This document shows, in pieces, positions 14,441 through 35,760 of a DNA stretch of 64,000 bases. The stretch is from Patagioenas fasciata (lineage: Eukaryota > Chordata > Aves > Columbiformes > Columbidae), in contig NW_027288588.1 of the NCBI RefSeq assembly GCF_037038585.1, forward strand, positions 744,001-808,000, written 5' to 3'. Position numbers and translations under genes: made by a program. The notes beneath the pieces are model-generated. The model had not been told where the DNA came from. It was given only the letters and a program-made list of their open reading frames with translations, and did not search any database. The stretch's first letter is position 1; the number at the start of each line of letters is the position of its first letter.

Positions 14441-15825
14441 GGGTGCAGGGTTTGGGGTTCCAGGAGGTGGGGGAAGGACCTTGGGGTGTAGGGTTTGGGG
14501 GGCAGGGTTTTGGGGGAAGGATTTAGGGGTGCAGGGTTTTGAAGTGCAGCATTTCAGGGGGGCATGATTTTGGGGGTGCACATGTGGGGGTCCAGGTTTG
14601 GGGGATGCAGAGTTTGTGAATGGAGGATTTTGGGGTGCTGGGTTTGGGGCTGCCTAATTTGGGGGTGCAGTGTTTGGGTGTTCAGGACCTGGGGTTGCTG
14701 CGTTTGGGAATGCAGGCTTTGGGGGTGCAGGGCTCAGGATTTGGGAGGGCAGGATCAGGGGGTGTAAGATTTCAGGGTTTAGGGGTGCAAAGTATGGTAG
14801 GGCTGAATTATAGGGGTGCAAAGTATGGTAGGGCTGAATTTAGGGGTGCAGGATTTGGTATTACAGGTTTTGGGGAATCATGGCTTGGGAGGAAGGATTT
14901 AGGGGTGCAGGGTTTCAAGATGCAGGATTTGGGGTGCAGTATTTGGGGTTGCAGGTTTGGGGGGTGCAAGTTGTGGGGCGGCAGGATATCGGGTACAGGG
15001 TTCTGGGCTGCAGGGTTTGGGGGTGCAGGATTTCAACGTGCAGGGTTCTGGGGTGCAGTATCTGGGGGTCCAGGGTTTGGCAGTGCATTGGCTTTGGGGG
15101 TTGAAGGATTTGGGGGTGCAGGGTTTAGGGATGCAGGATTTGGGGGTGCAGGATTCGGGGGTGCAGAGTTAGGGGGCAGGATTTTCAGTGCAGGGTTTCA
15201 GGGTACAGAACTTGGTGGTGCAGGATCTGGGGGTGCAGGTTTTCGGTGGGGAATTTGGGGGTGCAGGGTGTTGAGGAAGGATCTGAGGGTACAATATTTG
15301 GGCTTTAAGGGTTTAGGGGGGCAGGATCTGGCAGTGCAGAGTTTGGGGACAGGACCTGGGGGTGCAGCGATTGGGGTTACAGGTTCTGGGGGTGCAGGGT
15401 CGAGGGAATTATTTGAGGTGCAGGGTTATGAGAGTGCAGGATTTCTGGGTGCAGAGTTTGGGGTGCTGGGTATGGGGCAGCAGCATCTGGGGGTGTAGGT
15501 TTTGGGGGTTCATTCATTTGGGGGGAGGATCCGGGGGTGCAGGGTTTAAGGGTTCAGGATTTGGAGGTGTAGGGTTTTGGGGTAAAGGGTTCTGGGTTGA
15601 GGTTTTGGGGTGAAAGATTTGGGGATGCAGTGTTAAGGGGTGGAGGCTTAGAGGTGCAAGATTTGGGGGTGGAGAGTTTTCGTGTGTCTGATTTGGGGGT
15701 GCAGGGTCTGGGGGTGCAAGATCCTGGAATTCAGGATCTGGGGGTTCAGGATTTGGGGGTGTACAGTATGGGAGGGAAGGATCTGGGGCTTCAGGATTTG
15801 GGGGTGCACTGTTTGGGGGTGCAGG

Positions 15826-16285
15826 GTTTAGAAGTCAGGTCTAAGAGTGCAGCGTTTGGGGTGCAGGGGCTTGGGGGGAAATTTAAGGTTGCAGAGTGTG
15901 GGGTGCACAGGACTGGGGCACAGGATTTGGGGGTGCGGGGTTTCAGGGTTCAGGATTTGGAGGTGTGGAGTTTTGGGGTGCAGGGGTTGGGAGTGCAGGG
16001 TGGTGGGGGTGAGAGATTTGGGTGCAGGATTTGGGGGTGCAGAGTCTTGGGAGTCAAGGATCCGGGTCTGCAGGATTTGGGGGTTCAGTGTTTAGGGCAG
16101 CACAATCTTGGGGTGCAGGGGTTTGCAGTGAAAGGTTTGGTAGGCAGGATTTGGGGTGCTGGGTTTGGGGTGCTGGGTTTGGGGTACAGGATTTGGTGTT
16201 GCAGGGATGGGGTTGAAGGGCTTGGGTTTCCAGGCCTTTGAGGTGCAGGATTTGGAGGTGCAAGGTTTGGGAGGGAATTCTTTGG
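15826..16285 (+). repeat. Higher-order duplicate inside 15-bp array, copy 2
   Basis: Partner of 14143-14440. Both ends match closely, while the middle differs by an inserted group of array units, so the two blocks diverged after duplication. Confidence 0.85.
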
Positions 16286-16642
16286 GGTGCAGGGTTTGGG
16301 GGCAGGTTTAGGGGTGGAGGGTATAGGACGGAAAGATTTGGGAATGCAGGGTTTGGGGTGCAGGTTTCGGGGTTCAGGAAGGTAGGGAGGGCAGGATTAG
16401 GGGGTGCAAGGTTTCAGTTGTAGGGTTTAGGGGTGCAGAGTTTGGTAGGGCCGAATTTGGGGGTGCAGGATTTGGGGTGCAGGGTTTGGGAAGACAGGAT
16501 CGGGGTGGGGGATTTGGGGGTGCAGGATTGAGGGGCAGGGTTTTGGTGCAGGGCTTGGGGTCAGGATCTGGGGTGCAGGTTTGGGAAGAGTATTTTGGGG
16601 TGCAGGATTTTGGGTGCCGTGTTTGCGGGGCAGGTTTGGGGT

Positions 16643-17599
16643 GATCACTGCTGATCCGCACACACTCGCTCTCTCTGGTATTCACCTCCACTCCTGCTCC
16701 TCCACCTCCCCACTGTTCTCTCCATCTCCTCTCTTCTCATTCCCACCACACTCTGCACACAGACCCGACCACTGAGAATGTTCCAGAACACGCTGATCCA
16801 AACCCCGCTGGGACCTCCAGGCTCCATGGCAGTGTGAAAATTGAGTGTGCCACAGAATCCCTTTGGGTGTCAAACACCTTGAAGGTGCTGGAGTCCAAGC
16901 ACAACCCCCCGCCACTGCCCACGGCCCTCAGGAGCTCCTGTGGAAACCCCTCCAGGGATGGCGGCTCCAGCCCTGCCCTGGGCAGCCCGTTCAGTGCCCG
17001 ACAGCCCTCGCTGGGAGGAACAGCTCCCAGGCTCCAGCCAGAAGCTCACCCGGTACCGCTGGGGCCGTCTCCTCTCCTCCTGCCGCTCGTTCCCGGGCAG
17101 AGTCCCCGAAGCCCGCTCTCCGGGCGCTCTGCGGGCGGCTCCTGGCCCGGCCGCCCCCCGCACTCCCGCTCTGGCTCCGCCCCAAGGCTCAGGCGGGAAC
17201 GGCCGCTGCGGCCCGGCCGGCCAATCGCAGCTCGCCGCCTCAGCCCCGCGCGCCGCCGGCCGGTGGCCCCGCCCCCTCATCCCCCATCCCCTCAGGAGGG
17301 GCCGCACCCGCTGGTGCTGAGCGCGGAGCTGCTGGCGCCACTCGGAGAGGCTCCAGGGGACACCCCCAAAGGCAATGGAGCCCTGCCCTGTTGGGCAGAG
17401 GGGGAGGACCTGAGACAGCCCCTGCCCTGTCGCTGTCGGGCACCGCTAGGGGACCGAAAAGATGACGAGGGTTGGAGGCGAGTTCCAGTTCGGCGCCACG
17501 GGCATCCTGGGAAAAATAGGCAGGCTGACCCAGAAAGGTACAGCGACCGAGAAGAGCTTAGCTGAGAGAAAATCACTGAAAGAGACCCGGTCTGGTTTG
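16643..17599. promoter_or_regulatory. CpG-rich island, no gene assigned
   Basis: The interval about 17040-17350 is dense in CpG and holds a CCAAT box (near 17220) and GC boxes (CCCCGCCCC near 17266-17274), which looks like a promoter island. No exon with a recognisable product or good splice site could be linked to it. Confidence 0.3.
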
Positions 17600-18070
17600 T
17601 GACAAAACCAGGACACCCCCAAATTGTGTACTTTGCCCAAAAAATGGGCCCCAAAAATGCTTTTTCCCCATAAAAATGGGTTCCCCGCAAAACTGAGTGT
17701 TTTCCCCCCAAAATGGACCTCAAGTATTGGAAGTATTGGTTTTTTCCCAAAACAATGGGTCTTGTTCCCTCCAGAATGGGTACTACCCCACGAAAAATGG
17801 GACTGAAAATGGGTGTTTCATTCCAAAAATGTGTCCAAAAAATGGTGTTTGCCCACAAAGTGTGGGCCCAAAAGTTGTTTTTCCCCCCCCAAAAAAATGA
17901 GTGCACCCAAAACTGTGTGCACCCTCCGAAAATGGGTCCAAAGATGGGTGTTTCTCCCCAAATATGGCCCTAAAATTGGGGTTTTCCCCAAAATATGCAC
18001 TTGTTTCTAATAAAAAAATGTGTTTCCCCCAAAAAAATGGATCAAAAAATGAGTGTTTCCCCCAAAAAGG
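17600..18070. repeat. Degenerate CCCCAAAAATGGG repeat array
   Basis: Loose tandem repeat of about 20-25 bp built from TTTTCCCCC, CAAAAATGGG and short spacers. Copies are strongly diverged, so this is an old array. Non-coding. Confidence 0.8.
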
Positions 18071-18312
18071 TTATAAATTTTTTTGCAAGATTTGCCAAGT
18101 TTGGGCAAAATTACAGATTTTCTTGTCAAGATTTGTAGATTTTGGCGCAAAATTGCAAGGTTTTGGGGCAAGATTTGCAATTGGGGGGGAAATTAGTATT
18201 TTGAGGCAAGATTTGCGCATTTTTTGGTTAAATTACAAATTTATTTGCAAGAGTTTGGAAGTTTTGCAATTTCTTTTTGGCAAAACTGCTCAGTTTGGGG
18301 GCGTTATTGTGC
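18071..18312. repeat. Degenerate TTTGCAAGATTTG repeat array
   Basis: Immediately follows the previous array with a different unit of about 28 bp: TTTGGGGCAAGATTTGCAA and variants, about eight degenerate copies. It stops where the CR1 fragment begins. Confidence 0.75.
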
Positions 18313-18318
18313 AAGATG

Positions 18319-18575
18319 ATGAGAGAGGTTCTCCTGCCCCCCTGCTCTGCCCTGGGGAGACCACCCCTGGAATGTTGTGTCCAGTTCTCCCTCAGCTCCA
18401 GAAGGACAGGGAACTGCTGCAGAGAGCCCAGCGCAGCCACCAAGATGCTGGAGGGAGTGGAGCATCTCCCGTGTGAGGAAAGGCTGAGGGAGCTGGGGCT
18501 CTGGAGCTGGAGGAGACTGAGGGGGGACTCATTCCTGGGGATCAATATGGAAAGGGGGGTGTCCCGGAGGCACCC
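18319..18575 (+). mobile_element. CR1 LINE fragment (+)
   Basis: Matches the 3' part of CR1 ORF2 and beyond: CTGCAGAGAG-type text, CAAGATGCTGGAGGGAGTGG, GTGTGAGGAAAGGCTGAGGG and GGAGCTGGAGGAGACTGAGG are typical. It is cut short on the right, where ERV-derived sequence begins. The same CR1/ERV junction recurs inverted at about 34,745-34,790. Confidence 0.9.
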
Positions 18576-19604
18576 CAGGTTCGTTTAAGGGACAACAGGG
18601 TCCAAAACAACTTTTGTTAAACCAGCGAGAAACAGGGTTTTAGCATCCAAAAGTGACTCGAATACAGGTTCGGATACCAGTTGAGGAAAATGATGAAGGG
18701 GCAGCAACCAATACGACAGGCGGTGCACAGAGTGCATGCACGTGGCTTCACCAAAACAGTGCCGGAGCCGTCCCTGAGTCCGGGAGGAGTCCGCACTTGC
18801 CTGAACACGGTGTGGGGTTATTTTGAAGAGATACACGTACTGTAGTGAGTACGGAAAGTGCACAATCGCGATTCTGCGAGGGTAAATTTACAATACACTC
18901 GCAATCCTGCGAGGGTTAATACACGTGCAGATGTGCACAGAAAATTACACGTGCTTGTGCGGAAGCAGGGGAGGAAAATACACCCGCGATTGTGCGAGGA
19001 AATAATTGATACACGTGCTTGTGTTAAGTACGGAAAGAACGCGTGCAAACGTGCACGGTGTTACAGACGATCACGATAAACAGCACGCACCCGTCGGAAT
19101 AAATTGCTTAGAATTTATTGCAGCAAGCGGGCAAAAGAGCGCTGGGCGGCCGGGGAGCCTGCGCTGCACCACGGCGCCTTTCCAGGAGCGGCCAGCTTGG
19201 TTACATGTGGTAAAGGATTACGTATTCATGGTTATTCCAGGAACGCCTATACACATCCATAACTTTTCCTCAACAAGGCCGTTCTTATTAAAATGAGTTC
19301 CAAGGAATTATATCTATAGTCTTCAGCTCTGGCTCTTTCCTGTTGCGCCTGCGCAGTGTCTGCGGGTGGTCACGGGCGGGGGTCTTTTGGATGAAGGCTG
19401 CGGTCCGTTTCTTTGTGCATTTCTTATCTTTGGCCTAGCACGCTGGGTTTGGCCAGGGCTCCAAGGCCTTGAGCTGGTTTTCCTCCCGCTTTGTGCTGAA
19501 GACCCCGTTATCCCGTTCACACAAGGATGCAACTGGGCCCTTCTCTCTGTCAGTCTCTTCCTGAATGTTCTGCAGGGTACGCTAAATTAGGCTTTTACAC
19601 ATAT
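18576..19604 (-). mobile_element. ERV remnant: LTR, primer site and leader (class III-like)
   Basis: In minus orientation: LTR from about 19,604 to 18,682, with a polyadenylation signal at 19,129-19,124 and an end in CA; then a primer-binding site starting TGGTATCCGAACC at 18,679, resembling the tRNA-Leu type used by ERV-L-like elements; then a leader of about 100 bp that stops at the CR1 junction. The rest of the provirus is missing and the copy is broken. The presumed U5 holds a row of short hairpins (18,860-19,060). The 5' LTR limit is approximate. Confidence 0.6.
18860..19060. repeat. Row of short hairpins within ERV LTR
   Basis: Perfect short inverted repeats recur every 25-60 bp: CTCGCA/TGCGAG with a 4-base loop at 18898-18913, GTGCA/TGCAC with a 4-base loop at 18925-18938 and again at 19043-19056, plus weaker TCGC/GCGA and CGC/GCG examples between them. 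Confidence 0.7.
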
Positions 19605-19974
19605 CTGTGGAACAAGTTTTTTACAAAGACTACATACAGGCTGCATTGTTTAATGGCAGCATATACTAATATCACACGCTCAGGTTTCACAGCCACTGAT
19701 AACATATCCATTTAGACCGGTTTGATTAACAAATATATCGTTAAGTCTATTACAGTCCCTAACCCCAGGAAAAATACATCCATGTGTTTAGAGAGAAATT
19801 ATCTTACGGATATACGCTTGCCTGAATCTGGCAAGGAATTCTTCAAGAAAATCCACAGCTCCACAAGGCAGAAAGGCCGGGGCACTGCCTGTGCGGCCCC
19901 AGGGATGGGTCCCCAGCTTGGTGACCTGCAAACCACGTTTTTGTGCAGACGGGGAGGAATGGGGACTGAATCAT
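19605..19974. other. Between two LTRs, no gene seen
   Basis: AT-richer sequence that could be interior ERV material belonging to a flanking LTR. No domain was recognised. Confidence 0.35.
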
Positions 19975-20404
19975 TGTTAGGGAGGACGAGACAGGAGGGT
20001 GCTGGGGACCCGGAGGGTTCTGAGGAAAGGATTGTCAGCGTTGTGCGATGAGGAACGATTCACACAGACGCAGACGGGGCGCACAGGCACAGAGTTCTTG
20101 TTGGCAGCAAGAGCAGAGCCGGGCAGAGCTGAGCTCTCTTTTATTAACGGTTCTCCATTTATAGATTTACAGGGATGAGCTTGGGCTAAGAGGTTAGACA
20201 AATGACTTTGTTCAATAATTGCTATTCTAAACACACCACACTCCTATTGTGACTGGTTTCAGTCACGTTCCCATGCGTATCTTGTGGGCGGCGTTCCGAC
20301 CCACTCATTCACACGCCCAGGCCCAACATTCACACATCACACACACGGGGGTGGTTTTCTGACCGGAGATATCGTTCTCACTGGTCTGGGCCATCACGTC
20401 TTAC
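19975..20404 (-). mobile_element. Solo LTR (ERVK-like, avian)
   Basis: Minus orientation: starts TGTAAGACG near 20404, has a TATA-like CTATAAATGG near 20,164-20,155, an AATAAAAGAGAGCTCAGCTC polyadenylation region near 20,144, a GC-rich R/U5, and ends CCCTAACA at 19975. This arrangement is typical of avian beta-type (ERV2/ERVK) LTRs. No interior sequence was recognised beside it. Exact ends are inferred because no target-site duplication was found. Confidence 0.6.
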
Positions 20405-21284
20405 ACCCATAGAAAACACTTCCGTGTAATCTGTCCAAGGCCCTTTAGCTGGAACCGCACACCCTGCCATTCCCGCAAGAGTTATCGACCCTGAGCCCTT
20501 CGACGGCCCGTGGGACCAGGCGGGCGGCCTGGAGCCGGGCGACCTGTGGCACGGAGCGTTAATGAGCCCTAGGGCACCGCGAGTGCTGCTGCATGGACCA
20601 GGCCTCTCTCCTGGGAACACCAAGGGAGCAGCGGCCACCCATCACCACCCTGTTTGGTTCGGCAGCCTGAACCCCCTCCCCGAGTTTGGCAACGGCACCC
20701 CCCTCAGCACCTTCAGCAAATCAGAGCAGTCCTCTCCATGGCACTGGGAACCGTGAGCAGCGGGAGCTGCAGCGGGACCCGTGTGGGAGCAGGTCCGGTG
20801 CTGCCGGGGCCGGTGGGAGAGGGGTGCAGCCGGCTCCAAAGCCGGTGTGAGCAGCCATCGCCTGCCCAAGCTGCGCCAGGCAGGGCAGCCGCGCTCCCCG
20901 CTGCAGACACGTTGGGTGAGAGGGGCAGGAAGAAGCGGGGAAGGGTGGAAGGAAGCCCATCGGCGCTTGCAGCCCGGTGTCCCCATGTGGGGACATGGCA
21001 GGGGTGGCCTGGGGAAACCCCTCCCGCTCAGGAGACAGTGGGGTGGGGGCAGCTCCCGGAAGCCCCTGCCCACTGCAGAGCCCCTGGCAGGGCCTGGGGG
21101 GAGGGTGTGTGCAGCCCCTCTGTGACACGGTCCGGGGTCACAGTGGGACAGCCAGACGTCACAGTGGTGACAGCCCCCCTGTCCCTGTCGTGACCAGCGT
21201 CTGCCCCACTCACCCGGTGAGGCCGAGTGGACTCCAAGTGCTGAGAGCTGCTCTCGCACCGCTCTGCTCTGGAGTAGCTGCTCT
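20405..21284. other. GC-rich upstream region, no gene seen
   Basis: Lies between the LTR and the purine repeat upstream of the CCDC81-like gene. It may contain that gene's promoter or untranslated first exon, but no specific signal could be fixed. Confidence 0.35.
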
Positions 21285-21462
21285 GCAGTGAGGAGGAGAA
21301 GGCGGAGAGAGGGAGCAGGACAGCACCAAGGAGGTGAAGGGTGGAGAAGGAGAAGGAGGAGGAGGAGGAGAGAAAAAGGAGGAGGAGGAGGAGGAGGAGA
21401 AGGAGAAGAAGGATCAGGAGAAGAAGGAGGAGGAGAAGGACGAGGACAAGGAGAAGCAGTAA
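21285..21462 (+). repeat. Purine-rich (GGA/GAA)n tract
   Basis: Almost pure purine on the + strand, mostly GGA and GAA triplets, ending about 55 bp before the start codon of the CCDC81-like gene. It may lie in its promoter or 5' untranslated region. Such tracts can form H-DNA triplexes. Confidence 0.9.
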
Positions 21463-21518
21463 AGCCATTGTCCAGCCACTCTCTGCAGTTGTTGACTTGA
21501 AGCAGGAGTGGAACTAAG

Positions 21519-24500
21519 ATGGCAAGACAGCTCTTCTTGCAGCCTCACCTGAGCCCAACTATTGAGAAGCTGGAGCGTTATGGTAAGGCCTTCAGGCCCA
21601 ATTTCACATGTGTGTCTGGGTCAAGGACATCTCTGAAATCAGGCATGGAAACCCGAGGACTGTGGGGGGTGGTTGCTCAGGAGTGGTGACTGCAAGGAGG
21701 GACCTGCGTGACCATCCCAAAGGGCTGAGGGGCTGATGTGGCAGCCAGGGCTCCTGGTTCCCTCCCTGACGTGGCCCCTGCCTTCCTGGGGCAGCCCAGG
21801 CAGAAGCCCCTGACCCCAAGGGGCTGCCCTTGCCTGGCGCTGGGCATTGCCCACGCTGAGCTCACGTCTGAATGGAAGAGCTGAAGGTGCTCGTGGGCCA
21901 CGTGGGCTCTGTGTGTTCAGAGATGTGACCCGGCAAAACCGGCCCCTGCTGGGGAGACACCAGGGCCTGCCCTGAGCCTCCGAGAGCCGCGTGGAGCGCA
22001 GCCCCGTGCCCCCGCGGGCAGGGCAGAGCACTGCCGGCTTCCCGTGGGAGTGGGTCACACCCTGGAGAGCTGCACCCGCAAGGAAAGGAGCCCCTTGGAG
22101 GCAGCATGAGGTGTCCCTTGGTTCTTGCCGGGCTGGAGAGAGACCACCTGAAATGCCTGAGTGAAAGATGCATCGCTCCTTGGACAGGAGTGGGCCGAAT
22201 GGTCTTGAGCTTGCTGCCTCAGAGCATGACGGGTCTTTCCCTTGTTCTTCCAGAGTTCGCTAAGATTTGGGCCAGCACATCGTATCACCTCAGCCTGCAG
22301 CTGGCTCTCCACCAGGTGGGCCTCACCTCCTTCTCCCCTCACACCCTGATGAACGCTGATCAAGTCCTGACAGCCCTTTGCCATCGGGTGCAGCTGTTCT
22401 TCCCCTGCGTTGAAAGCAGGAGCAACGCCCCAGCACAACACTGCAATGCACACAGTGACATGGACACCTTCTCTGTCCATTCAGATGTACAAGAAGGTCC
22501 CCCCGTCAGAGTTGCATGTGAAAACCTGGAAGCCCGGGACACATCTGGATTTATTCCAAGCGTGGGAACCCCCTGCCTTCTATCTGATTGAGCCAGAGGG
22601 TGTTTGTCAGCTTTCCCTCACCTATTTGGTTCTTCGTAGCTGAAGGGCGGTGCGAGGGAAAAGCGCAGCCCCTGTTTGTGTTCTCCCAAGGAGCCCATCT
22701 TGCTCCTTTGTACCTCAGGCCAGGGCAGGGCACTAAGCACCATCAGCCTCCTCTGACAAGTCACCCGTCTGCCCCTCCAAGGCTTCTTCCCATCCGCCAT
22801 CTCCTCTGTTCCAGGCTGTCCGCGTTCCCGGAATCGGGACTTTTGCGGTTGTCACGCAGCGAGTAGCCCTCAGCGAGCAGGATCTGGTGATCGTGGAGAG
22901 ACCCGTGTTCCAACCTGAAAAGGCTGTTGCGCAGGACCGTGAGCTCCGCTGTGCTTGCACAGACTTTCCTGGTGAGCAGCGTGAAAGCGGCGCTGGCCTT
23001 GAGCAGGGTGGGAGGGGTGCTGTGCTCTCCAGAGGTGACTGAGGGGAGCACCAACCACCCACCGCGGCCCTGCCAAGAGCTCCACTCGACAAAGCCGGCC
23101 GGCTGTGGAAGGACCCTGCCCAGCTGTTTGTTTTAAAGAATCGCCAGAGGACAATGCAGCTAAGAGCGCACTCTCTTTGTCCTGCTTCAACAACAGGGTC
23201 CCTCACAGCTTCCTTGGGGTGGTGTCTTCTGGTTCCATGATGCTTCAACTCTTGCTCCCCCTTTCCGCTGCTCTAGACCTCGTCCAGGCAAATGCCGGGG
23301 CTCTTCCAGCTCCCTCAGCCTCCTTGCACGGGGGAAAAGCAGGGGAAACCCAGGGGGGAAAGACGGTTCCTTCCAAAAGCCACTGGCGGGACACCTGCGC
23401 CTTCTGGTCACTGCTGCCTTTGGGGCAGCTGTTGTGGGACCCCGGGGAGCACCAGGAGCTTGGGGCTGTGTTTGGGGTGCGTTTCTCTCTAAAGACAAAG
23501 ACAGCACCGAGTGTGGGCTGGCACCCTCCAGCTGCCCTGGGACCTGGCGCCTATCTCCCCACTTTGTCCCGCAGTCACTCTTCTTCCCACCAAGTGCCTA
23601 AGACTCTTTGTTTCCCTTTCTGTATCAGAGAAGCCACCGCTGTCTGCTCCGCACCTCACTGCCCACTGTAAGAGGAAGGGACAAGCCGAGCGTCTCCTCA
23701 GAGGCGCTGGCCCAGCCAGACAGCCCAGCACCAAAGTGTTGCCCGAGGGCCCGGAGGCTGCAGACCTTTGATTGTAGCCTGCCCAGCAGGTCTGCAAGCT
23801 CATGTGTTCCTCTTCTCTCGTCTTTCAGGCCACCAAGATTTCGAGCAGCTGCCGTATGCTCAGATAGCCTCAGAGAACGCTGTCTCTGAGGGCACCGTGC
23901 AGCTCTACATGGAAAGGACCACGCACCTTTTCCATGCCTGCGTAGAGAACGGGCAGAACGTTGCCATCATCTGGAGGGACGTGGGCATGCTGATTGTCCA
24001 GGGAAAAGACGTGAAAATGAGATTTTACTTAGACTTTCTGGAAAGGCTGAATGGCGCTGGCAAGATGCTGCAAGCTCTTCTCGAGGTAGGATTTTCACTT
24101 TCCCAGCGCCACTCCTGCTGCTTCTGAAATGCTTTCTGGGGGCTGCTTTCCCCTGGCCGGCCATGCCTCGTTCAGCCCCTGGGCTCCTGGAGCTCTAGAG
24201 CACAGCAGGCTCTCTGCAGAGCACCTCCCTGGCGTGCAATGGCCGGGCTTTGCAAGAGCCGCCCCCAGAGGAGCTGCCCTTTGCGAGAAAAGGCCGGCGT
24301 TGATGGCGGGGAGCGCTGCGTGCCCCACTCTGGGGGCCGGGAGCAGAGGCACAGGCAGGGCAAGGCTTGCTGAGCCCAGAGCCCTTGGGCGGCTCTGGCT
24401 CTTTGCTGGCGCTGGGCTGAGGCGGAGCGAGCAGCCGGCCCTTCCCAGTGTCCGCTCCTCCCGTCATCCGCCTCTGTCCTCGTTGCAGATGCCGGAGATG

Positions 24501-27500
24501 AGGGACTCGGTCATCTCACGCCATGACACCGCTGCTTCCCAGACCTCTTCTGGACGTGTTGTCGTCCTGCCATGGTACGTTTGACTTCACTTGAGGAACG
24601 GGGGACAGTGGCACGGCTTCTGCATCTGTCCTGCTGTGGAGCTAGAGACGCATTTAGGCAACATTTCCCGCTACGTTTCTCCTGCTCCTTTTCTTTCCTC
24701 TCTGGGAGAGACTGCTCTTAGGTCCGGAAACGTTAATCTGCAAGGCTCTACGAGGAACTCGGAGGGCAAGATCAGAATTCAAAGGCATCTTAGAAAACCA
24801 GAGCACTAGATAATACTCTGCTCTCCATGTGCGCGATGAGCAGAGTCATTTCCCCAGCAGCAGCAAGGGGGTTTTGTGGGAGGACGGCCATTCTCAGGGA
24901 AGGATGGAGAAACGCGGGCACAGGCTGACGGGGCCTCTCCCGGCACTGGAGCTTCTGCTGCGTCCCTCCGGGTTGGGCTGCGGTGGGAAACAAAGTGATG
25001 TCCTTTCTTCAGCCTGCTGCCTTCTTCCTCTGCCAGGTACCAACTTGAGACCGTGCCCAAAGTGCCAGCGCTGATAGACCTGAACGGATGTGTGAAGGGA
25101 AAAGGTGACGGCCTGTGGTGTGAACCTGCCCCAGCAGCAAATCTGTGTGCGCGGGACCAAGGCAGAAACCCCAGAGCCGGGTTCCCTTGAGATAAATGAT
25201 TCCCCTCCCCAGAATGACTCCTGGACGGCACCAGTATCTGCCATGGAAGCCCCCGTTTCAGCACACGGATGAGAGAAAGCCATGCAAACAGTCTTCCCCA
25301 GGGAATAACGGTGCACTGTGGGCATGGGGCGTTGGATGAAAAAACAGTGTCAGAAAAGGCCTAAGACCTCCCAGGAAACATGGCTTTCCCCCAAAGGGAT
25401 GAAAAGGACCACCTTCCCCAGTGTCACCACAGCCCTGAGCAGACCTGCACGTCACTCTCCTTGGAACTGGCACACGAGTGGCACCCGGTTCCCAGAACAA
25501 CACCGAGATGCTGTTCTGAAGAACCGTCTCCTTTCCCGTTTCTAGAGGATGCTGCCGGGAAGCGCCTCCTCCGTCGAGCCAGGCTTCCTCCACATCGGTT
25601 ACCTGCCCTGACTGTGACGCCGGAGCAGGGTCAGAAAGCCGAGGGGAGTGAGCCTCGCGCCAGGTGAGACACTCGCACAAACGGGTGAGCGTGGCCCCCT
25701 GCTCCGGTCTCTGTGGGAGCGAGACGTTTCTCCCGGAAACACCCCACGTGCGCTTTGCCCACGTCCCACTGACTCACGGTTTCTTGCTCATGGCAGTGTC
25801 TGCAGCTTCTTGGCAGACTCTGCTGGCACCACCATTTCTTTCTTCCCTTCCGATGTGCAGATGTCTTGAGTAGCCAAGTGCAAAGGCTCGTTCCAGGAGC
25901 AGAAGGTCATTTTGGCTTTCCCTTCAGGTTGAAATGAGCCTGGCCTTTCTGTTTGCTGAGAACAGAGTTCTGCAGTTAGTTACTGCAGAGGATTGCCCTG
26001 AGCAACCAGGAGCCTCTTCTGCGCTGACGCCTGTCTTACAGAGAGCTCAGTGGCAGGATGGCTTTTCCGTGGGGTCGTGTCCTCCTCCCTTTGACACTGT
26101 GTCCCCAGCGCCCACCCTGCCCGTACAGGGCGTAGCGCTATCTCCGGGCACAGGACCCTGTTCCTCTGGGTGCTCCAGCAAGAGAGGGCCGAGACCTGGG
26201 CATCCCGGGTTGCAGGGGGGGTGTTGGGCACATCTGAGGCTGAGAGCTTGGGGTCTTCTCTGTGCCTGGGGACTTGATCACAAGGATGTGAGCAGAGCCC
26301 GTTCTGCTGCAGAAGCAGGTGCGCCACCTGGAAGCACAGGATGCAGAACCAGCTCCTCCTGCGCTCCTGCCAACACGCCCTGTTGTGTCTTTGCAGGCAG
26401 CTACCGGTCATCCAGAGGAGCTGCTTGAAGGAAAAGGAGGAGAAAGGAAAGCTACCGCCTCTGGTTGCCCCCAGAGAAGTGGACTTCATAGCCAGAGCCA
26501 TTGAGAGGAGAGAAAAGGTACCCGACACCAGATGCTGCAGGAGCACATCCTACTGGACTGTAGAGCAGCGTTGCTCCACACATGCCAGTGCTCACAAGAT
26601 TCTTCACTGGGTGTTCACGGGACCACTGACCGGTTGCTTTGGTGTTTGCTTGGAGAGAGGCGGGTCACTGTCAGTTGAGAATATACTTGTCACTTCCAGC
26701 AGCCTGGAAACACCCCCAGAGCCCTCACGTGGGGCTGTTTCTGTCGGCCGGGTGACTGCAGGGCTTGTCTGGGCTCGCCAGCTGCCGGCTGGTTTGTAGC
26801 CCGGTGGTGGCCGATCTCCCTGGTCATCCCAGACGGGCTCCTCGGTGGAGCCTGCGGGAACCTGGGAGCAAACCAGCGTGGACAGCGAGGCAGAAGAGAA
26901 GGGAGGGAAGGGAGGGAAACAGCTCAGCCGTGGCAGGACAGACTAATGCTGCCTGCTATTGCATTTCATTCGGCCTCCAGAATAAACGGCAGAAGAAGAA
27001 AGAGGAGAAGCTTCCACAGTATATCCAGAAATTCCTGGAAGCAGAGGAAAAGAAGGAAAAAGAGGCGGCGGTAGGGGAAAAAAGTAAACGGCCGTCAGCC
27101 GGAGCAATGACGGCAAAGGCCGAGGCAGAAAAGGAGACACCCGGTGTGGAAGGAGAGGCAGAAAACCCAGAGGAGATGCAGAGGAGCCAGGTACTTGGGA
27201 TTCCTGCAGAAGAAGAGCACTTTCTCCCGCGGGGCGGCTGAGACCGCAAAGCACCTCTGGCACCCAAGCCATCACAGCAGCGTTGCTGCAGCAGAGCCGG
27301 GCGGGTGATGCTGCCCTTCCTGAGCAAGAAGGGGGACACAGAGTTGCAGTGAAACCCTGGTGACACTCAGAGGTCACCCCAGGGCCTCCTAAGCTCCTTC
27401 TCCCGGTTCTCCCTGTCCCCTGTGGTCCATCCAGAAGTGTTCTGGGGTCTGCGTGCTGGGAAGCAGCACCCTCCGGGTGCGGGGCTGTTGTGTGAGAGTC

Positions 27501-29511
27501 TCCTCCTGCGCAGGAATCCAGCTCCCCCGAGTGCTCCTCAGACAGCTCCTCGAGCAGCGTGGAGTCAGACGAGTCCAGCTGTGACCTGCTGGAGATCAGG
27601 ACCATTATGGAGGACTGGGAAGAGGCCGGAGAAGAGCCCCCCACAGTCCCTGAGGACAACAGCGTCCCCCCGAAGCGGTACGAGTGTGCCCGCTCCAGCC
27701 GAGCCCTGGGGCCGTGGGGGGAGAGCCAGAGGTGGTGGGTACAGGGAGCCAACCCCCGAGCCACGGGGCTGCACAGGGCGCCCGGGGATTTCTGCAGCCA
27801 CGGGAACGGGCTGGGTTAGACCCCACGGCAGGGGCCAGAGCAGGGGCTTGAAACCCCTCCTGCCTCCAGGGGGCTGTGGGGCAGAACGGGGCCGCATAGC
27901 TGTGGGGCTGAGTGTGGGAAGAGGCAGGACGGTCCCAGCTGCAGAGTCAGGGAGACTTTGTCCTTGCTGTTGCAGGAGCCTTTCCCCACGGACAGACCGG
28001 GCCCTGCGGGAGGTGGTGACCTGCATCCTGGGGCAGGTGGCCCGCAAGAGGAGAGGGGAGAGGGATGAGCAGCTGGATCTGCAGGACAAGCTCCAGTGGT
28101 AAATCTCTCCGGACACGGGCAGCGCTTCCTCTCCCGCAGTCCCTTCCTCCTGCTCCCCGCAGCCCCGCGGGAGAGAGCCGCTTCTCCTGGCACCGGCCTC
28201 TCGGCAGAGCCGCTCCTGCGGCCGCGGCTGGCGCCCAGCTGGGAGCCCGGCTGGAGCGCGCTCCTGTGCTCACACCACCTCCTCCCGCTGTGTGTCTGCA
28301 GCGAGCTGGCCGTGCTGCGCTGGGAACGGTCGGGGAAAGAGGCAGGCAGCAGCCAACACCTGCGGGAAGCTGCACCCCAGGCTGCACCCCCTGCCAAGGC
28401 GGGGGAGAGGAGGGCAGGACCGGTACGTCCCCAAGGTTGATGTGGTGGCGTTTGTAATGGCGACGGCGCAACGGTGCGGCCAGGCTGGTCTGGGACAGCA
28501 AGCAGCCGGGTTGCTTTCAGCCCCGCGCTCCCTTGGCTCAGGGGTCGTTGCAGAAAGGCTCTGCAGTCGGGACCGTGAGCAAAGCAGGGCTGATGGAGAG
28601 GCTGAAAAGAAGGGGCAGGAGGGAGGGGGGGCGCTGAAATCCCCCCAGCCCCTGCCAGGGACACCAACACTGCCTGCTGCTGCATTGCCGTGGTCCTGCA
28701 GGCGCAGCCCCGCGCGTGCACGGAGGAGGAAACACGCAAGCTCTGGGAGTCCTTGTGCAGCAAGATAGAGCAGAAGCGCAGCAGTGGCACCGCCAAAGGC
28801 CTGGAAAAAAGAGCCAGAGCAATGGGAGGCCCAGGTACCGCAGGCCGTGAAAAACAACTGGGGAAAGAGCATTCCCAGTTGAGTGTTTGCCTTTTGGAGT
28901 GCTCGCCTCTGAAAAAGGGGGTGTGGGCCAGCTTCAGGCCAGAGCTGGGCAAAGAGGGTGTTTTCCTGACAGCCCTGGGGGCACGGAGAGCAGCAGGGTG
29001 GGACTGCACCCCAGGGACCTGGACCTGCTCTCTCCAGACAGCAGCAGATCCCACCACAGGTGTCCTGACCAGACTTGTTGCTCTGCACCTCTGTGCATAC
29101 AAGACTGCAGAGCTTTGTACTCAACTCCGCAGCTCTGGAGAGCGGATCTGCTCCACGTCGGCCAGTGCCAGGAGACCGTCTCAGGCGCTGAGGCTCGCGA
29201 GAGAGACGCCCAGCAAGAGCCTTCTCCGGCGTGACGAGCGCCAGTGCCGGCCAGGCTGCTGGCACCAGCTCTTGCCCCCATCAGTAAAGCCCCCCCTGCA
29301 AACCGCTGGGTCTCACGCTGTGGGTGTTTCCTTGGTGGCTGTGAGGCTGCGCTGGGCAGTGGGTGAGCGCTGGGGGGGCAGGGAAAGGCCTGCAGGGAGA
29401 GGGCTGGAGCTCCGGCCCTGCTCCAAGGGCAGCCCTCCCCAAGGCTCTGCTGGACCCGCTCGGCTGCGGCCCCGCTCTTGGTGCCCCTGCACCTTGTGGC
29501 CCTGGCACTGA
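21519..29511 (+). CDS. CCDC81-like: CCDC81-like protein with two HU domains (multi-exon)
   Basis: Thirteen GT-AG exons join in one open frame of about 561 codons: 21519-21582, 22254-22315, 22815-22971, 23829-24085, 24489-24574, 25037-25104, 25546-25663, 26397-26517, 26981-27190, 27514-27677, 27976-28098, 28302-28422 and 28702-28834. After 28834 the frame stays open to a stop at 29509-29511, either read through or with 28835-29110 spliced out; this end is uncertain. The protein starts MARQLFLQPHLSPTIEKLE. Exons 2-3 form HU domain 1 (FAKIWASTS, VRVPGIGTFAV, VIVERPVFQPEK); exon 4 forms HU domain 2 (VAIIWRDVGMLIV, VKMRFYLDFLERL). Exon 9 is a Lys/Glu-rich likely coiled coil; exon 10 is acidic and Ser-rich. 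Human CCDC81 has two HU domains, is linked to centrosome and cilium, and is about 650 residues; birds carry many diverged paralogues. Function here is inferred from family only. No break was seen, so it is probably expressed. Confidence 0.85.
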
Positions 29512-29537
29512 GCCTGCTGCAGCTGCACATCCCGGAC

Positions 29538-29574
29538 AGGATCGGGAGGAGGAGGAGGAGGAGGAGGAGGAGGA
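29538..29574 (+). repeat. (GGA)n microsatellite
   Basis: About ten GGA triplets directly beside the start of the following LTR. Confidence 0.9.
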
Positions 29575-30090
29575 TGTGAAAAATGCAGTTGTGATTTGTG
29601 CTAATGTCAGCAATCAGGACACAGAACCACGGGCACAGTTCCATGCGGTGCTTTATTCCAGCGCTGGGAAACCAGGGGTTCGCACCCAAAGCTTCCAACA
29701 GCTGATTCAGACCATACCTTATTATACAAGTCGGTCACATACATATTCATTACACCCCTGACAACCATTAGAATATTCCACACCTGTAATAACACAAACT
29801 TCCTATCTAAAAGATGCTACAATTATCAGTTATTTTCTACGGTACCAACTTTAAAAGAATATATCGTAAATCTATGTCCACCTTAAGAATAAGGCTCGGT
29901 TACAGTTACCTGCCTTGTAAGAATATACCATAAATCTATGTCAGCTTTAAGAACAGAGTTTGGTTACTGATTACAAGAGTTCTATGGCTACAGGGCTGGT
30001 TGCCATCCTAATATTAATCCAACTGTAAGAGATCCAGCGATATTCAGGGAAGACCCATCCTGTCCTGTTCCATGGAACAAAACCTCTTGT
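29575..30090 (-). mobile_element. Solo LTR (avian ERV)
   Basis: In minus orientation it has an AT-rich U3 with internal near-repeats (the CATAGATTTA..ATATATTC motif occurs twice), a TATA-like TATAATAAGG near 29,730, a polyadenylation signal GGAATAAAGC near 29,655, and ends ...TTTTTCACA at 29575. Length is about 515 bp. No interior sequence adjoins. The far end is approximate and the family (class II or III) is undecided. Confidence 0.6.
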
Positions 30091-30402
30091 CAGGTTGATT
30101 CCTCCCAGCCGCAGGCCCTGCCGGCCGCCCTCACGCATCCCGGGGGCGCCGGGGGCTCCCGCCCCGCGTTGCCCCGCACGCAGCGCTCCCGCAAGGCCCC
30201 GCACACCGAGGGAGCGGGGGGAGGAGGCGGCTGCGGGGGGATTCGAACTCGGCACCCGGAGCACAGGGGGGGCGGGGGGAGAGAAGAGGGACGGAGCCCG
30301 CTCGGCTCCGGGGAGGCCGCGTGGTGCAGAGGCGGAGGGGGCGGGGCCAATGAGAGGGGGGCGGGGTGATGGGAGGGGGCGTGGCCACGCAGCGGGATCG
30401 CC
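30091..30402. promoter_or_regulatory. GC island, no gene assigned
   Basis: High-CpG stretch with GGGGCGGGGCCAATGAG (GC box plus CCAAT near 30,337-30,352), promoter-like on the + strand. What follows is a minisatellite, so no transcript could be proposed. Confidence 0.3.
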
Positions 30403-30785
30403 CGGACGCCTGGGTCCTCTCTCCCGAACTCCTGGGTCCCTTGGGGCACTCCTGGGTCCCCCCCCAACTACTGGGTCCTTAGGGGTACCCCTGGGTCCCC
30501 TTTCCCGAACTCCTGGGTCCCCTCTCCAGGACTCCTGGGTCCCTTTCCCAAATTCCTGGGTCCCTCCCCAACTCCTGGGTCCCTCCTGAACTAAATCCCC
30601 ACCTGAACTCCTGGGTCCTCTCTCCCGAACTCCTGGGTCCCTTTCCCGAACTCCTGGGTCCCTCCTGACCTGAATCCCCGCCTGAACTCCTGGGTCCCTT
30701 TCCCGGACTCCTGGGTCCTCTCTCCCAAACTCCTGGGTCCGCATTCCTGAAAACCTGGGTCCCTCCTGAACTGAATCCCCGCCAC
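30403..30785. repeat. About 22-bp minisatellite (CTCCTGGGTCCC)n
   Basis: About 17 units of roughly 17-25 bp around a fixed core ACTCCTGGGTCC followed by a variable pyrimidine-rich tail (CTCTCCCGA, CTTTCCCGA). Some units are replaced by a CCTGAACTGAATCCCCGC variant that itself recurs. Confidence 0.92.
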
Positions 30786-30799: not shown

Positions 30800-30910
30800 C
30801 AGACTCACAGAACAGTTTGGGTTGGAAGGGACCTTCACAGTTCATGCAGTCCAACCTCTGCCATGAGCAGGGACATCTTCACCCAGATCAGGTTGCAGTT
30901 GGTAGAAATG
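30800..30910 (-). mobile_element. CR1 3' end fragment (-)
   Basis: CACAGAACAGTTTGGGTTGG followed by AAGGGACCTTCA is the complement of the conserved CR1 3' terminus (AAGGTCCCTTCCAACCCAAA). Short, 5'-truncated copy. Confidence 0.88.
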
Positions 30911-31114
30911 ATGACCTTTCAGAGCGTGCTGGTGGTACTTTGTCCCTTGTGCCCTGCCCTGATGTGCAGAGGAGACAGAAGGGACACTGGGAAGCTTTGG
31001 GGAAGACCCCCCGTATGCTGAGGTGTTGCGTCTCCTTCCTCTTCAGCCTCTAAAAGGTATGTGGTAAAGAGCAGAGCTGGAACCGGGGGTTCCCATCATT
31101 TGGGATAAACCCTA

Positions 31115-31225
31115 AAAACTCATTAATCATTTTGGTTGGAAAAGACCCTCAAGATCATGGAACCCAACCATAACCCACCCCTGGCACTGACCCATATCCC
31201 TGAGACCCTTGTCTAAGGCTTGACA
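31115..31225 (-). mobile_element. CR1 3' end fragment (-)
   Basis: TCATTTTGGTTGGAAAAGAC, then CCTCAAGATCATGGAACCCA, is the CR1 3' terminus in reverse. More diverged than the copy at 30.8 kb. Confidence 0.85.
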
Positions 31226-32026
31226 GGAGCTCCAGCGCAGTTGTCTGCAGCCGGTGCCGGCGAGAAACCTAAAATAGGACATGGGAGAATTTGCATGGGA
31301 GCGTTCACCACGCGGAAATATCTCTGCCTTGGGAGGGCTGAGATTGAGTGGGTTGGAGGTTCTTTTTGTTTTCAAGGATGTGATCAAAATCACATGAAAT
31401 GACACACAACGAAGGGTAGGCACAGGCTGGGACTGACACCGGAGCCTCAGCACCGCGTTTTATCCTTCATGGAGAAAGGGAACCAGGCTAAATCAGCCAG
31501 TTGGAGGCCAAAACAAGGGGCTCCTTTGGCTGTTCTGGGACGGGAGATGCAGGCAGGGCCACCAGTGTGGGGTCTGTCCTGGAGCTGCAAGGGTGGGATG
31601 CGGGACGAGGCAGCCAGAGCTGCATCCACACAAGGAGGCACAAACATCTGCCATTTCCATGTTGGTTTTAGGAGGGTTAATATATGTGATGGTGATTTTT
31701 GACCCACACATCGCCTGGGTTGGCATCACCAGCCACAGGTTGGGTTTTAGCATCGTTCTAAAATGCTGGAGGGAGCAGGGTGGGACTGAGGCAGCACTGG
31801 TGACAGAGGGACAGAGCCCCTGGGGTCCATGTCTGTCTTGTGCCAGACAACCCAGAGTTGGACTCGGTTCTCTGGGGAGCCCCAGGAGAGCAGAGCAGAG
31901 GGGGAGCATCCCCTCCCTCCACCTGCTGGTGATGTGGCCCAGGAGACACTTGGCTTTCTGGGTGCGAGTGCACATTGCCATCTTATGTCCCTTTTGTCAC
32001 CCACCAGCCCTTCTCCACAGGGTTGC
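31226..32026. other. No gene recognised
   Basis: Unique-looking sequence with no domain, splice pair or repeat family that I can name. Confidence 0.4.
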
Positions 32027-32080
32027 TATCCATCCATCCATCCATCCATCCATCCATCCATCCATCCATCCATCCATCCT
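32027..32080. repeat. (TCCA)n microsatellite
   Basis: About 13 perfect CATC/TCCA tetranucleotide units, abutting the CR1 piece to its right. Confidence 0.97.
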
Positions 32081-32245
32081 CCCCCAGTCTGTGCTGGTAC
32101 TGGGTATTGCCCTGACCCAGGTGCAGGACCTTGCACTTGGCCTGGTTGAATTTCATGAGGTTCACATGGACCCCCCAGCCTGTCCAGGTCCCTCTGGATG
32201 CCACCCCTTCCCTCCAGCGCATCGACGACACCACTCAGCTTGGTG
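32081..32245 (-). mobile_element. CR1 ORF2 C-terminal region fragment (-)
   Basis: The text GACCTTGCACTTGGCCTGGT, AATTTCATGAGGTTCACATG and CCAGGTCCCTCTGGATG is the reverse complement of a widely conserved CR1 segment. Confidence 0.88.
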
Positions 32246-34009
32246 GAAAAGCAGAACTGAAGTGTCTTGGGTGATGCAGAGGCCAGGGAAATGTGCCTGG
32301 CTTTAGCTCTCTGCCAAGAACACCTGGGGAAACCCTTTGAAATGCTTCAGCCACTTTAGCAGAGAAAAATAACACCCCCACACAGCTGCCAGGCTTTCAC
32401 TGCTCACGCAGGGACAAAGGACAGCGCGGGGACAGCACAGCGCTCACTCTGGAGCTCGCCGGCTCTGACACCCGTGCCTGTTTGGGAGAAATCTCAATGG
32501 GAAAGATTTTGTGCTCTGGGATTCAGGTCATCTGAAGAACACCAGCAAGGAGAACGACTGCCAAAACCTGCACAACGATGTGACCAGCTCCAGCTCCCCT
32601 GGGGAAGGAGGCGGCTGGTGCTTGTCCCAGCCCAGCCACGCCATGGGCGACCCAGAGCGGATGACAGCAAAGCCTCTTTCCAGGCTCTATTCGCTGTGAG
32701 ACCGTGGGGCAGGGTCCCATCCAGGGGGAACACGGGGAGCACATCCTGCCCGAGGTCGCAGGCCGCTCTGCTGCACGGGGAGCAGAGGAAGGGACAGAGG
32801 GGTCTGGGTGGCCCCAGAGGAGCTTGGAGCAGAGCAGGGGGCACAGAAACCCAGGGAGGGTCTTGGAGACGGGTTCAGAGAGGATCCAAGTGTATATGGG
32901 GAGGGGGAAAGGGATGGGATGGTGCAGGGGGTGTCACACAGGGTGGGAGTGAGCATGCAGGGACCAGAGCCAAGCTGAAGGTGCTCGGTGGGGATAGAGG
33001 TGATTGAGCAGGGGACAGGAGCAAAGTCCTGCGGAGGGCAACGGAGCTGGAGGGGATTTGGAGGGGTAAAGAGGAATCGGGGAGACCCAGGAAAGAATCT
33101 GGGGCATGGGGGGTGTGAGGGGGAAGCACAGGAGCTGTGATATTTGGGATCAGAGGAACTGGAGAGAGGATGCAGAGGGGAAGAGGGATGGGGAGAACCT
33201 AGAGTGCACAGAGAGGGGGGCAGAATGGGTGCCCCCAGGGTGGGGGGAAGGCTGGTTTGCCAGTCATCACCCCCCAAATGAGCTGGGGCTGCAGGTGGTC
33301 CCAGCACCCCCACCCTGGGCAGCAAAGGGGGACCATGGCAACAGCAGCAGGTCCCACTGCACATCCAGCATCCATCAGGGGGAAATAAAACACCTAAGTG
33401 GGGGCAGATAACGCAGGAAACCCCCAAAGTGGGCACAGGGAACAGAGCTGAGCACAACACATCCCAGCACTGGGGCTGCTGGGCTTAAATTGGTGTCCAG
33501 GAGCATGGGGGTGCAGGTGAGGATGCTCAGGGTGATGAAGGCATCAGAGTGGGGATGCCTGTGGGAGGGGGTGGTGGGGGCTCTGAGGTGCTTGGGTATG
33601 TGTGTGTGTCCCCAGCCCTGCAGGGGACAGGGGGACAAGCACAGCCCTGTGACACACATGTAGTGGCTGCTGCTGGGTGTCATGGTGTGGGGACCCAGGA
33701 TCACCCCAACACGCTGCCCTGGGCTGGGGCCAGGTGGGTGCTCCCCCAAACTGTCAGCACCCACTCCTGGGTACCCCCCACTGGCTGCAACCCCCTGGGC
33801 AGGCACAGCGGTGCTGGGCTGTACTGGGACCTGCTGGTTCACAGCAGGATTTGGGGGGGGCCCAGGAAGAGTAGTCGGGCACCTCACCCTGTGCTGAGCT
33901 GGATCCATCCACCAGCACCACGTGGAGGACATTGGGGTGCAGGGGGGTAGGGAGGGGGTGTGCAGGGTGAAGGGGCAGTATAGTGGGGTACAGGACAGGA
34001 CAGTGGGTG
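32246..34009. other. No gene recognised
   Basis: GC-rich sequence with irregular G-rich tracts on the + strand. Several open frames on both strands, none with a recognisable motif. Confidence 0.4.
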
Positions 34010-34747
34010 TGGCAGGGTGCAAACCCCCCTCTCTCCCCCTCCCTCCTTCATCATGGAAGGAGTAGACACATCTCCCTCTCTCTCTGCTACAGCTTCTTTT
34101 GTTTGGCCCCAGAGCCCCTGGCCAGGGCCGTTAGGAGAAGGGAGCGCCGAGGTGCCAGGGAGCCGCTGGGCGCCCGCAGCCAGTGTGGGGGATGTTTGGA
34201 GGCTTCAGGGGCACCCACAGCCAGAGTGGGGGTGCAGAGAAGCTTCTGGAATGCCCACAGTCAGATGTGATCAGCCAATAAAAAATGGGACTCTCGTCAA
34301 GACTCCGCCCATTTGTCGCGGGTCTCTCGCAGCACGAGCGAGATGCTGCCGCCGAGAGCCCCCCCGGGATGGAGACTCCGCTGCCTTGCCGCCGCGGGTG
34401 TGAGTGAAACTGCCCATCGCAGGATTGCGAGTGTATTATAAATTTACCCTCGCAGAATCGCGAGTGTGCACTTTCCGTACTCACTACAGTACGTGTATCT
34501 CTTCAAAATAACCCCACACCGTGTTCAGGCAAGTGCGGACTCCTCCCGGACTCAGGGATGGCTCCGGCACTGTTTTGGTGAAGCCACGTGCATGCACTCT
34601 GTGCACCGCCTGTCGTATTGGTTGCTGCCCCTTCATAATTTTCCTCAACTGGTATCCGAACCTGTATTCAAGTCACTTTTGGATGCTAAAACCCTGTTTC
34701 TCACCAGTTTAACAGAAGTTGTTTTGGACCCTGTTGTCCCTTAAACG
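34010..34747 (+). mobile_element. ERV remnant: LTR, primer site and leader (class III-like)
   Basis: Plus-orientation counterpart of the element at 18,576-19,604. It has a polyadenylation signal (CCAATAAAAAATG near 34,275), a presumed U5, an LTR end in CA at 34,647, a primer-binding site TGGTATCCGAACC from 34,650 resembling the tRNA-Leu type, and a leader of about 80 bp. It then abuts a CR1 piece at the same junction as the other copy. The rest of the provirus is absent. About 320 bp of the shared part is roughly 97 percent identical to the other copy by eye. The upstream LTR limit is approximate. Confidence 0.55.
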
Positions 34748-35235
34748 AACCTGGGGTGCCTCTGGGACACCCCCCTTTCCATATTGATCCCCAGGAATGA
34801 GTCCCCCCTCAGTCTCCTCTTCTCCAGCTCCAGAGCCCCAGCTCCCTCAGCCTTTCCTCACATGGGAGATGCTCCACTCCCTTCAGCATCTTGGTGGCTG
34901 CGCTGGACTCTCTGCAGCAGTTCCCTGTCCTTCTGGAACTGAGGGGCCACAACTGGACACAATATTCCAGGTGTGGTCTCCCCAGAGCAGAGAAGAGGGG
35001 CAGGAGAACCTCTCTGACCCACTGAGCACCCCCTTCTAACCCACCCCAGGTACCATTGGCTTCCTGGCCACAAGGGCCCAGTGCTGGCTCATGGTCACCC
35101 TGCTGTCCCCAGGACCCCCAGGTCCCTTTCCCCTTCGCTGCTCTCCAACAGGTCCTTCCCCAGCTTAGACTGGAACCTGGGCTTGTTCCTGCCCAGCTGC
35201 AAGCGTCTACCAGTGCTGCCCAGCGCTGATGAAAT
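34748..35235 (-). mobile_element. CR1 LINE fragment (-)
   Basis: Reverse complement of the CR1 3' region: CTCAGCCTTTCCTCACATGG, GATGCTCCACTCCCTTCAGC and, further right, the segment with CCAGGTCCCTTTCCC. The left ~270 bp pair with 18,319-18,575; the right part extends further than that copy. Confidence 0.9.
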
Positions 35236-35239
35236 AAAG

Positions 35240-35760
35240 AATGCCGCCGAACAGCGGCATTGCCTCTGCTGTTCACTCCACCTCTTCGCTGCCAGAGAGT
35301 TCCCGCTTTCTCCAGAGCGCAAGAGACGAGGCCGAGAGAGCCCGGGAAGAGCCGGAGCCACCCCCGCCTCCCCGAGCCGGCCACGCCAGCAATTCAGCCG
35401 CCCGAGCGCTCTCCCCGCCACGCCCCAAGCGGCTCCCGCTGCCCGCGCAGGGGAACCGGGGCTCCTCGGCCCGGGACTCACCGGCCGTGCCGAACGCCCG
35501 CCCGCTCCGGACGCCGCTCAGCGCCGCGCTCGGCAGGGGCACCGCCATGCTGCGCGCCGCCCGCACTGGAAGGGCCCCGTTCCCATAGCGACGGGGGCCG
35601 CGCCGCGCGGAGTCCGGCCTGGAAGGCCCCGCAGCCGTAGCAACGGGTCTGTCTACCGCAGCGCCGGGCTGGGAATGCCCCCCTGCCCTAGCAACGGGGC
35701 TGTTTAGCGCGGAGCCTGCCTAGAAACGTCCCCGCAGCCCCGCGGGACGGGCTCTGCCCT
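35240..35760 (-). promoter_or_regulatory. CpG island with three tandem RFX-like half-sites
   Basis: Dense CpG promoter island. Three similar blocks about 51-52 bp apart each end in a GTTGCTA-type site on the minus strand (+ strand CATAGCGACGGG at 35584, CGTAGCAACGGG at 35636, CCTAGCAACGGG at 35687). GTTGCYA is the half-site bound by RFX factors. The blocks look like a tandem triplication (GGAAGGCCCCG...). They lie just upstream of the possible first exon at 35,482-35,548. Confidence 0.5.
35482..35548 (-). CDS. Possible first coding exon, mitochondrial presequence-like
   Basis: Minus-strand ATG at 35548-35546 opens 22 codons (MAVPLPSAALSGVRSGRAF, then GTA) and ends in phase 1 at a strong donor G|GTGAGTCC. 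The peptide is rich in Ala, Ser and Arg with no acidic residue, as mitochondrial targeting signals are. It sits inside a CpG island with promoter-like sites. Downstream exons on the minus strand were not found; the intron would run into the ERV/CR1 remnants at 35.2-34.0 kb. It could be the start of a gene continuing beyond, or a relic left by rearrangement. Product unknown. Confidence 0.35.

Follow-up and report, generated by a model that had tools for sequence, protein, structure and literature searches.

We report that a 64,000-nucleotide stretch of the Patagioenas fasciata genome (contig NW_027288588.1, positions 744,001 to 808,000 of the forward strand; hereafter the window) carries, at 21519-28834, a gene that is probably functional and, judged from its sequence, a new member of a known bird family, the CCDC81-like proteins. 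The gene forms the core of a segmentally duplicated mosaic of at least 14 kb. In the reading we favor, to which we assign a probability of roughly 0.55, it encodes an avian CCDC81-like protein with a cytoskeletal role exerted through protein contacts, held in many copies for dosage and kept alike by gene conversion. While the bird CCDC81-like family was already known, the genome-wide count of its second HU domain (HU2), the intact near-identical copies, the duplicon core, and the signs of exchange are new here.

Joining thirteen exons between 21519 and 28834 gives one open frame with GT-AG borders and matching intron phases. The predicted protein carries HU-CCDC81_euk_1 (PF14908; residues 13-82, encoded across exons 1-3 at 21555..22934, + strand; 36.6 bits), followed directly by HU-CCDC81_euk_2 (PF18289; residues 100-171, 23843..24058, + strand; 72.3 bits). 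Both exceed the curated Pfam cut-off, 26.1 bits for each profile, and as sequence matches both lie far beyond chance. The first-pass annotation, made from the letters of the window, had joined the same thirteen exons, noted both HU-domain signatures and proposed the CCDC81/HU-domain family; the splice borders and the Pfam matches bear it out on all three points.

All exons lie on the + strand and were placed by exon joining: exon 1, with the start codon (21519..21582; a homologous start is present in P0006 and P0007), exon 2 (22254..22315), exon 3 (22815..22971), exon 4, which holds the whole of HU2 and was also recovered by the genome HU2 search (23829..24085), exon 5 (24489..24574), exon 6 (25037..25104), exon 7 (25546..25663), exon 8 (26397..26517), exon 9 (26981..27190), exon 10 (27514..27677), exon 11 (27976..28098), exon 12 (28302..28422), and exon 13 (28702..28834), the last also defined by copy comparison. 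Two C-terminal ends are possible. The end at 29511, given in the first-pass annotation, arises if exon 13 is left unspliced at 28834 and runs on to the stop; equally possible is a splice from 28834 to 29133 into a candidate exon 14 (29133..29191, exon joining and copy comparison), which places the stop at 29191 and yields a 580-aa protein with every exon border GT-AG. The read-through frame, 28702-29511, stays open throughout in 20 of 21 gene copies, L047 having a length change and an early stop there, and L034 is 3 bases longer in the same interval. Compared by eye, this frame holds residues resembling the tail ends of P0006 (Patagioenas) and P0009 (Aquila). Also read by eye, the pigeon and raptor frames of exon 13 (28702-28834) seem to differ by one frameshift that is compensated downstream.

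A search of the joined exons against proteins, as suggested with the first-pass annotation, identified 36 homologues at E<=0.001 (7994 candidates scored), 35 of them from birds, and together with Pfam placed the product in the CCDC81-like family. The best homologue, from Columba livia, is 83% identical over 97% of the query. Bird-expanded CCDC81-like proteins from Columba, Patagioenas, raptors, ibis, ducks, and hummingbird have the same domain order as the window protein; some are named caldesmon-, titin- or neurofilament-like, and those of pigeons are up to 83-87% identical to it. In a midpoint-rooted tree built without a mammalian outgroup, nine copies from this genome (that of the window plus eight of the 20 compared in full) group as a single clade (100/99) that sits next to Patagioenas (91/80) and, together with it, groups with other columbids (100/100). 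The nine placed copies thus stand apart from other bird proteins, reflecting either a burst of this lineage's own or homogenisation. The window protein therefore groups with multicopy bird proteins, and the bird-only character of its homologues and its place among columbids agree with the earlier suggestion of a diverged, bird-expanded branch.

The protein also has the KRSLSP block of this family (residues 431-480, from the end of exon 10 through exon 11 to the start of exon 12; 27661..28311, + strand), which is kept as far as emu and is akin to a segment of mammalian CCDC81. The pattern occurs in 22 of 35 bird proteins and at residue 435 of the window protein; identity over the block is 78% to hummingbird P0015, whose HU2 is 65% identical, and 68% to emu P0034. 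Mammalian CCDC81 has tandem HU1-HU2 domains of the same fold and the KRSLSP segment, as here, but in our alignment its conserved C-terminal coiled coil and C..C.R tail are not kept in the window protein, and because of this we file the latter as CCDC81-like and not as CCDC81. We found the tail motif in 115 of the 120 CCDC81 proteins listed, of which those named are mammalian, and in 0 of 35 bird proteins. The earlier description of the C-terminal half as unlike human CCDC81 thus holds for the tail but not for the KRSLSP block, which mammalian CCDC81 shares. Compared with loris CCDC81, the window protein is 34% identical in HU1 and 25% in HU2, and its gene is multicopy. When the last 81 residues of loris CCDC81 were searched against the genome at E<=10, with no positive control, nothing credible matched, and tblastn did not confirm a weak tail match on C29 (E 3.99); on this sequence evidence this bird may have lost canonical CCDC81 or may keep it in too diverged a form.

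To count the family, we searched the assembly that contains the window (359 contigs, 1.45 Gb) in six frames with PF18289. At least 112 HU2 exons were found (122 candidates scored), all above the cut-off and all free of stops, including that of the window gene (C127:767843-768058), a number in keeping with the large bird expansion noted at first pass. By a hand grouping of the search table, tandem arrays account for 52 of them (21 at the end of C23, 22 on C24, and 9 on C25), with 36 of 49 spacings at 35-41 kb and the rest larger; 12 form a dense array on C33; about 43 are dispersed over 17 contigs and are of the window gene's type; and 5 fall elsewhere (C17, C36:5281963, C37:4136036, and two on C48). 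The 43 dispersed copies were put with the window gene because their upstream segment (40 copies, at 97-100%), their gene (L034 and L049) or the 16700-18300 segment (C23:1850852, at 94%) matches. The array on C33 belongs to a separate subfamily. Pieces of 3.2 kb from 11 of its 12 copies all show just 34-35% identity to the window protein across residues 42-103; the four pairs compared among them agree at 98.6-99.2%. A few copies may be assembly duplicates, because those on C36 recur exactly 1,711,263 bases apart with L036 identical to L037, and L041 (C31) is identical to L042 (C32). Confinement of the family to a sex chromosome was ruled out by the spread of window-type copies over 17 contigs; CHD1-like matches fall on C47, C48, C16, and C23.

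Copy alignment and segment searches define the core of the recent duplication at 16700..30770 (+ strand). Most of 20 copies compared share 20740-30770, two stopping at 29604 before an insertion, and fewer share the flank rightwards to about 37000. Pieces of the window were then searched in the genome with only 40 candidates scored per search, so that copies may be missed, and a place was called co-linear, by hand from offsets to HU2 exon positions, if it lay beside a gene copy (the window included). Co-linear places made up 40 of 40 for both 16700-18300 and 18950-20700, 31 of 40 for 30800-32800 (with a shift of about 4.7 kb in four), 23 of 40 for 34500-37000 (two partial), 4 of 40 for 44000-46000, and 2 of 40 for 60000-62000; on the far left, 4500-6500 gave 6 of 40, with offsets that differ from that of the window by up to about 3 kb. 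Away from the gene, the right flank recurs at 94-97% identity in 16 places (34500-37000) and 9 places (30800-32800), and once at 99% (C49:1379592, in the 34500-37000 search). Primate genomes contain core duplicons, NPIP, GOLGA and others among them, in which one gene-bearing core is common to the copies and the flanks occur in ever fewer. The same arrangement of common core and outward drop-off is seen here with a CCDC81-like gene, in a bird, over 17 contigs, the likeness to primates being drawn from general knowledge of them rather than from a compared case.

Other descriptions of the unit were considered and rejected. A transposable element carrying the gene is ruled out by shared ends that vary among copies and flanks that drop off gradually. 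A 0.6-kb inverted repeat pair flanks the gene (18322-18915 and 34414-35015), but it does not mark the end of the unit, given that the segment outside it, 16700-18300, always lies beside a gene copy in the scored places. Nor is the break at 29604 (L041, L042) an edge, since homology resumes about 4.7 kb outward in four C31/C32 copies, as by insertion.

To ask how the copies differ, 20 dispersed copies of 10 kb, of the 42 besides the window, were compared in full. All 20 align to the window across the gene, introns and flanks included, at 98-99% for 19 and 96-97% for L034. With the window counted, 21 of 21 copies have a 14-exon coding sequence of 1743 nt with all splice sites kept and no early stop; all-pair means are 1.1% for intron divergence, 0.0070 for nonsynonymous divergence (dN), and 0.0121 for synonymous divergence (dS). 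Selection tests used 19 copies, two exact duplicates being dropped, with expectations from intron-derived rates. We counted 47 amino-acid variants vs. 82.4 expected (Poisson P 1.6e-5), 0 stops vs. 3.5, and 0 exonic indels vs. 6.8 (P 0.0012). Because amino-acid changes, stops, and indels are fewer than the introns predict, selection appears to keep the protein, on sequence evidence that is moderate and not uniform. No excess of variable residues was found in the HU domains among copies (9 of 154 sites vs. 36 of 426 elsewhere, P 0.38); per 100 sites, 5.7 and 6.0 vary in the two domains vs. 9-10 in the long linkers, a contrast that does not reach significance (P 0.22).

Exchange between copies was examined at informative non-CpG sites in 18 copies, the two exact duplicates and L034 being dropped. 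The four-gamete test was failed by 2326 of 4753 site pairs, a fraction of 0.49, whereas simulations on the inferred tree without recombination, which unlike the observed set kept CpG sites, gave mean incompatible fractions of 0.08 and 0.15 and a maximum of 0.20 (20 runs each). Sites within 100 bp were more compatible than permuted ones (P 0.0004). Because the incompatible fraction exceeds the simulations and compatibility depends on distance, the data point to gene conversion between copies on different contigs, with the caveat that chimeric assembly of near-identical copies may contribute. The Hudson-Kaplan Rm (50) was set aside, as simulation without recombination gave means of 28.6 and 44.1 and a maximum of 56, and so it does not discriminate.

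CCDC81 itself is a component of the doublet microtubules in cilia and sperm tails. What the protein of the window may do is suggested by the fold model of P0001, a pigeon relative with which it shares 83% identity; the folds closest to this model are doublet-microtubule proteins. The model has two tandem HU-fold domains and disordered linkers with charged helices, and a sea urchin sperm doublet-microtubule protein (8snb_1K) and Tetrahymena CCDC81B/IJ34 have tandem HU1-HU2 of the same fold; structures of CCDC81 and its kin from axonemes have PDB release dates of 2023-2025. Bacterial HU and IHF share the domain fold with a weaker structural score, and the HU domains here are neutral or acidic by sequence (net charges of 0 and -4). 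A profile match to 8snb at 3e-100 was dropped as evidence, as the profile contains mammalian CCDC81. In the mechanism we propose, the product would descend from the axonemal/basal-body protein CCDC81 and work by protein-protein contacts: the tandem HU pair would dock on a microtubule-associated partner, the C-terminal helices would extend a scaffold in the sperm flagellum, cilium or centrosome, copy number would set dosage, and gene conversion would keep the copies alike. As modeled, the shape of the gene product points to a cytoskeletal job rather than to recognition of foreign molecules.

Several points weigh against this cytoskeletal dosage reading. A shared fold is not proof of shared function; the axonemal tandem-HU fold was found on the P0001 model and not on the window protein, at a mean pLDDT (predicted local distance difference test) of 65, with the HU domains confident; and any contacts made through the canonical CCDC81 tail are not kept, because that tail is missing. 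The gene model for this species and copy is known from genomic sequence alone. Silent variants are also below expectation in the 19 copies (28 vs. 34.9), and the nonsynonymous/synonymous ratio is 0.71 of neutral, which is not significant (P 0.16). Dropping the outlier L034 leaves 18 copies, for which the indel P is 0.022, the stop P 0.064, the ratio 0.67 (P 0.13), and amino-acid variants number 40 vs. 70.4 expected (P 5.8e-5). The earlier view of this copy as intact and perhaps functional is thus supported by the open frames and by signs of purifying selection, but not by dN/dS taken alone. In the parts of the literature consulted, no assay linked the CCDC81-like family to cilia in birds. The evidence on expression is indirect and comes from genes of other birds: PMC3620231 lists a CCDC81 array signal of 1.73-fold for spleen lymphocytes of immunised chickens, which is slightly more in line with an immune role, and elsewhere a chicken CCDC81-like gene is reported to differ between lines in embryonic RNA-seq and a goose CCDC81-like gene is tabulated for hypothalamus with P 0.088.

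The gene could instead be a passenger with no selected role, carried in a duplication-prone segment by olfactory-receptor DNA, its frames open simply as the burst is young. The low intron divergence, the flanks of mosaic repeats with olfactory receptors, and a dN/dS ratio not significantly under 1 would all fit, but we regard this as unlikely given the missing indels and stops, the shortage of amino-acid variants, the pair of segments immediately left of the gene that always accompany it in the scored places, the conservation of the KRSLSP block and HU2 to hummingbird and of the block to emu, and the open state of every HU2 exon, diverged subfamilies included. The first-pass annotation had relayed another role, non-self recognition, in which expanded HU proteins would bind foreign nucleic acid or proteins with copy number providing diversity; Burroughs et al. 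in 2017 reportedly read the bird CCDC81 expansion as a possible non-self recognition or defence repertoire, a reading older than the axonemal structures of 2023-2025. The size of the lineage-specific expansion, the separate lineage clades in the tree, and the chicken spleen signal are compatible with it. However, rather than diversifying, the copies stay alike, differing by about 1% and apparently exchanging sequence across contigs; the HU domains have neither excess variability among copies nor positive net charge; and the best folds, on the P0001 model, are axonemal. This role is therefore less well supported than the axonemal one, and we consider it quite improbable. That the protein is a DNA-binding, HU-like architectural factor, acting either on chromatin in birds or on the very DNA that is duplicated, seems to us very improbable indeed.

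A more ambitious version of the cytoskeletal reading, offered tentatively and thought unlikely as a whole, would make the locus an avian core duplicon with a stripped-down axonemal core gene, its copies recombining as a single pool across 17 contigs next to the giant tandem array of relatives, under male-germline selection (sperm-tail or centrosome dosage, or drive), with canonical CCDC81 replaced by the multicopy family.

The surroundings of the gene show further features. To its right, two olfactory receptor frames sit within the mosaic of recent duplications, one of 358 aa covering nearly the whole PF13853 profile (49952-51025, - strand) and one covering only its first two thirds (60648-61460, + strand). 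Direct duplications inside the window pair 37044-39464 with 52331-54750 (96% identity) and 39458-41408 with 55542-57514 (87%). Just left of the core, 7207-16641 comprises two large minisatellites with 39-bp and ~15-bp units, the latter with a strong skew of G over C, and a SNORD45-like small nucleolar RNA (2506-2590, - strand), above the gathering score, is the only Rfam match in the window. Beyond the window, the giant HU2 array spans C23:13.5-14.5 Mb, C24, and C25 with 52 open matches, and it extends to where C23 ends and to where C24 and C25 start. The 1,711,263-base repeat on C36, in which one checked pair is identical, is either a false assembly duplication or a very young duplication of 1.7 Mb.

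Taken at this strength, the locus suggests that the multicopy CCDC81-like proteins of birds are a cytoskeletal family under dosage or germline selection rather than a defence repertoire, and it may be a bird counterpart of primate core duplicons. It permits direct measurement of how a multicopy gene spreads, stays intact, and undergoes gene conversion, and both its behaviour as a core duplicon and gene-conversion pool and its axonemal fold are worth following.

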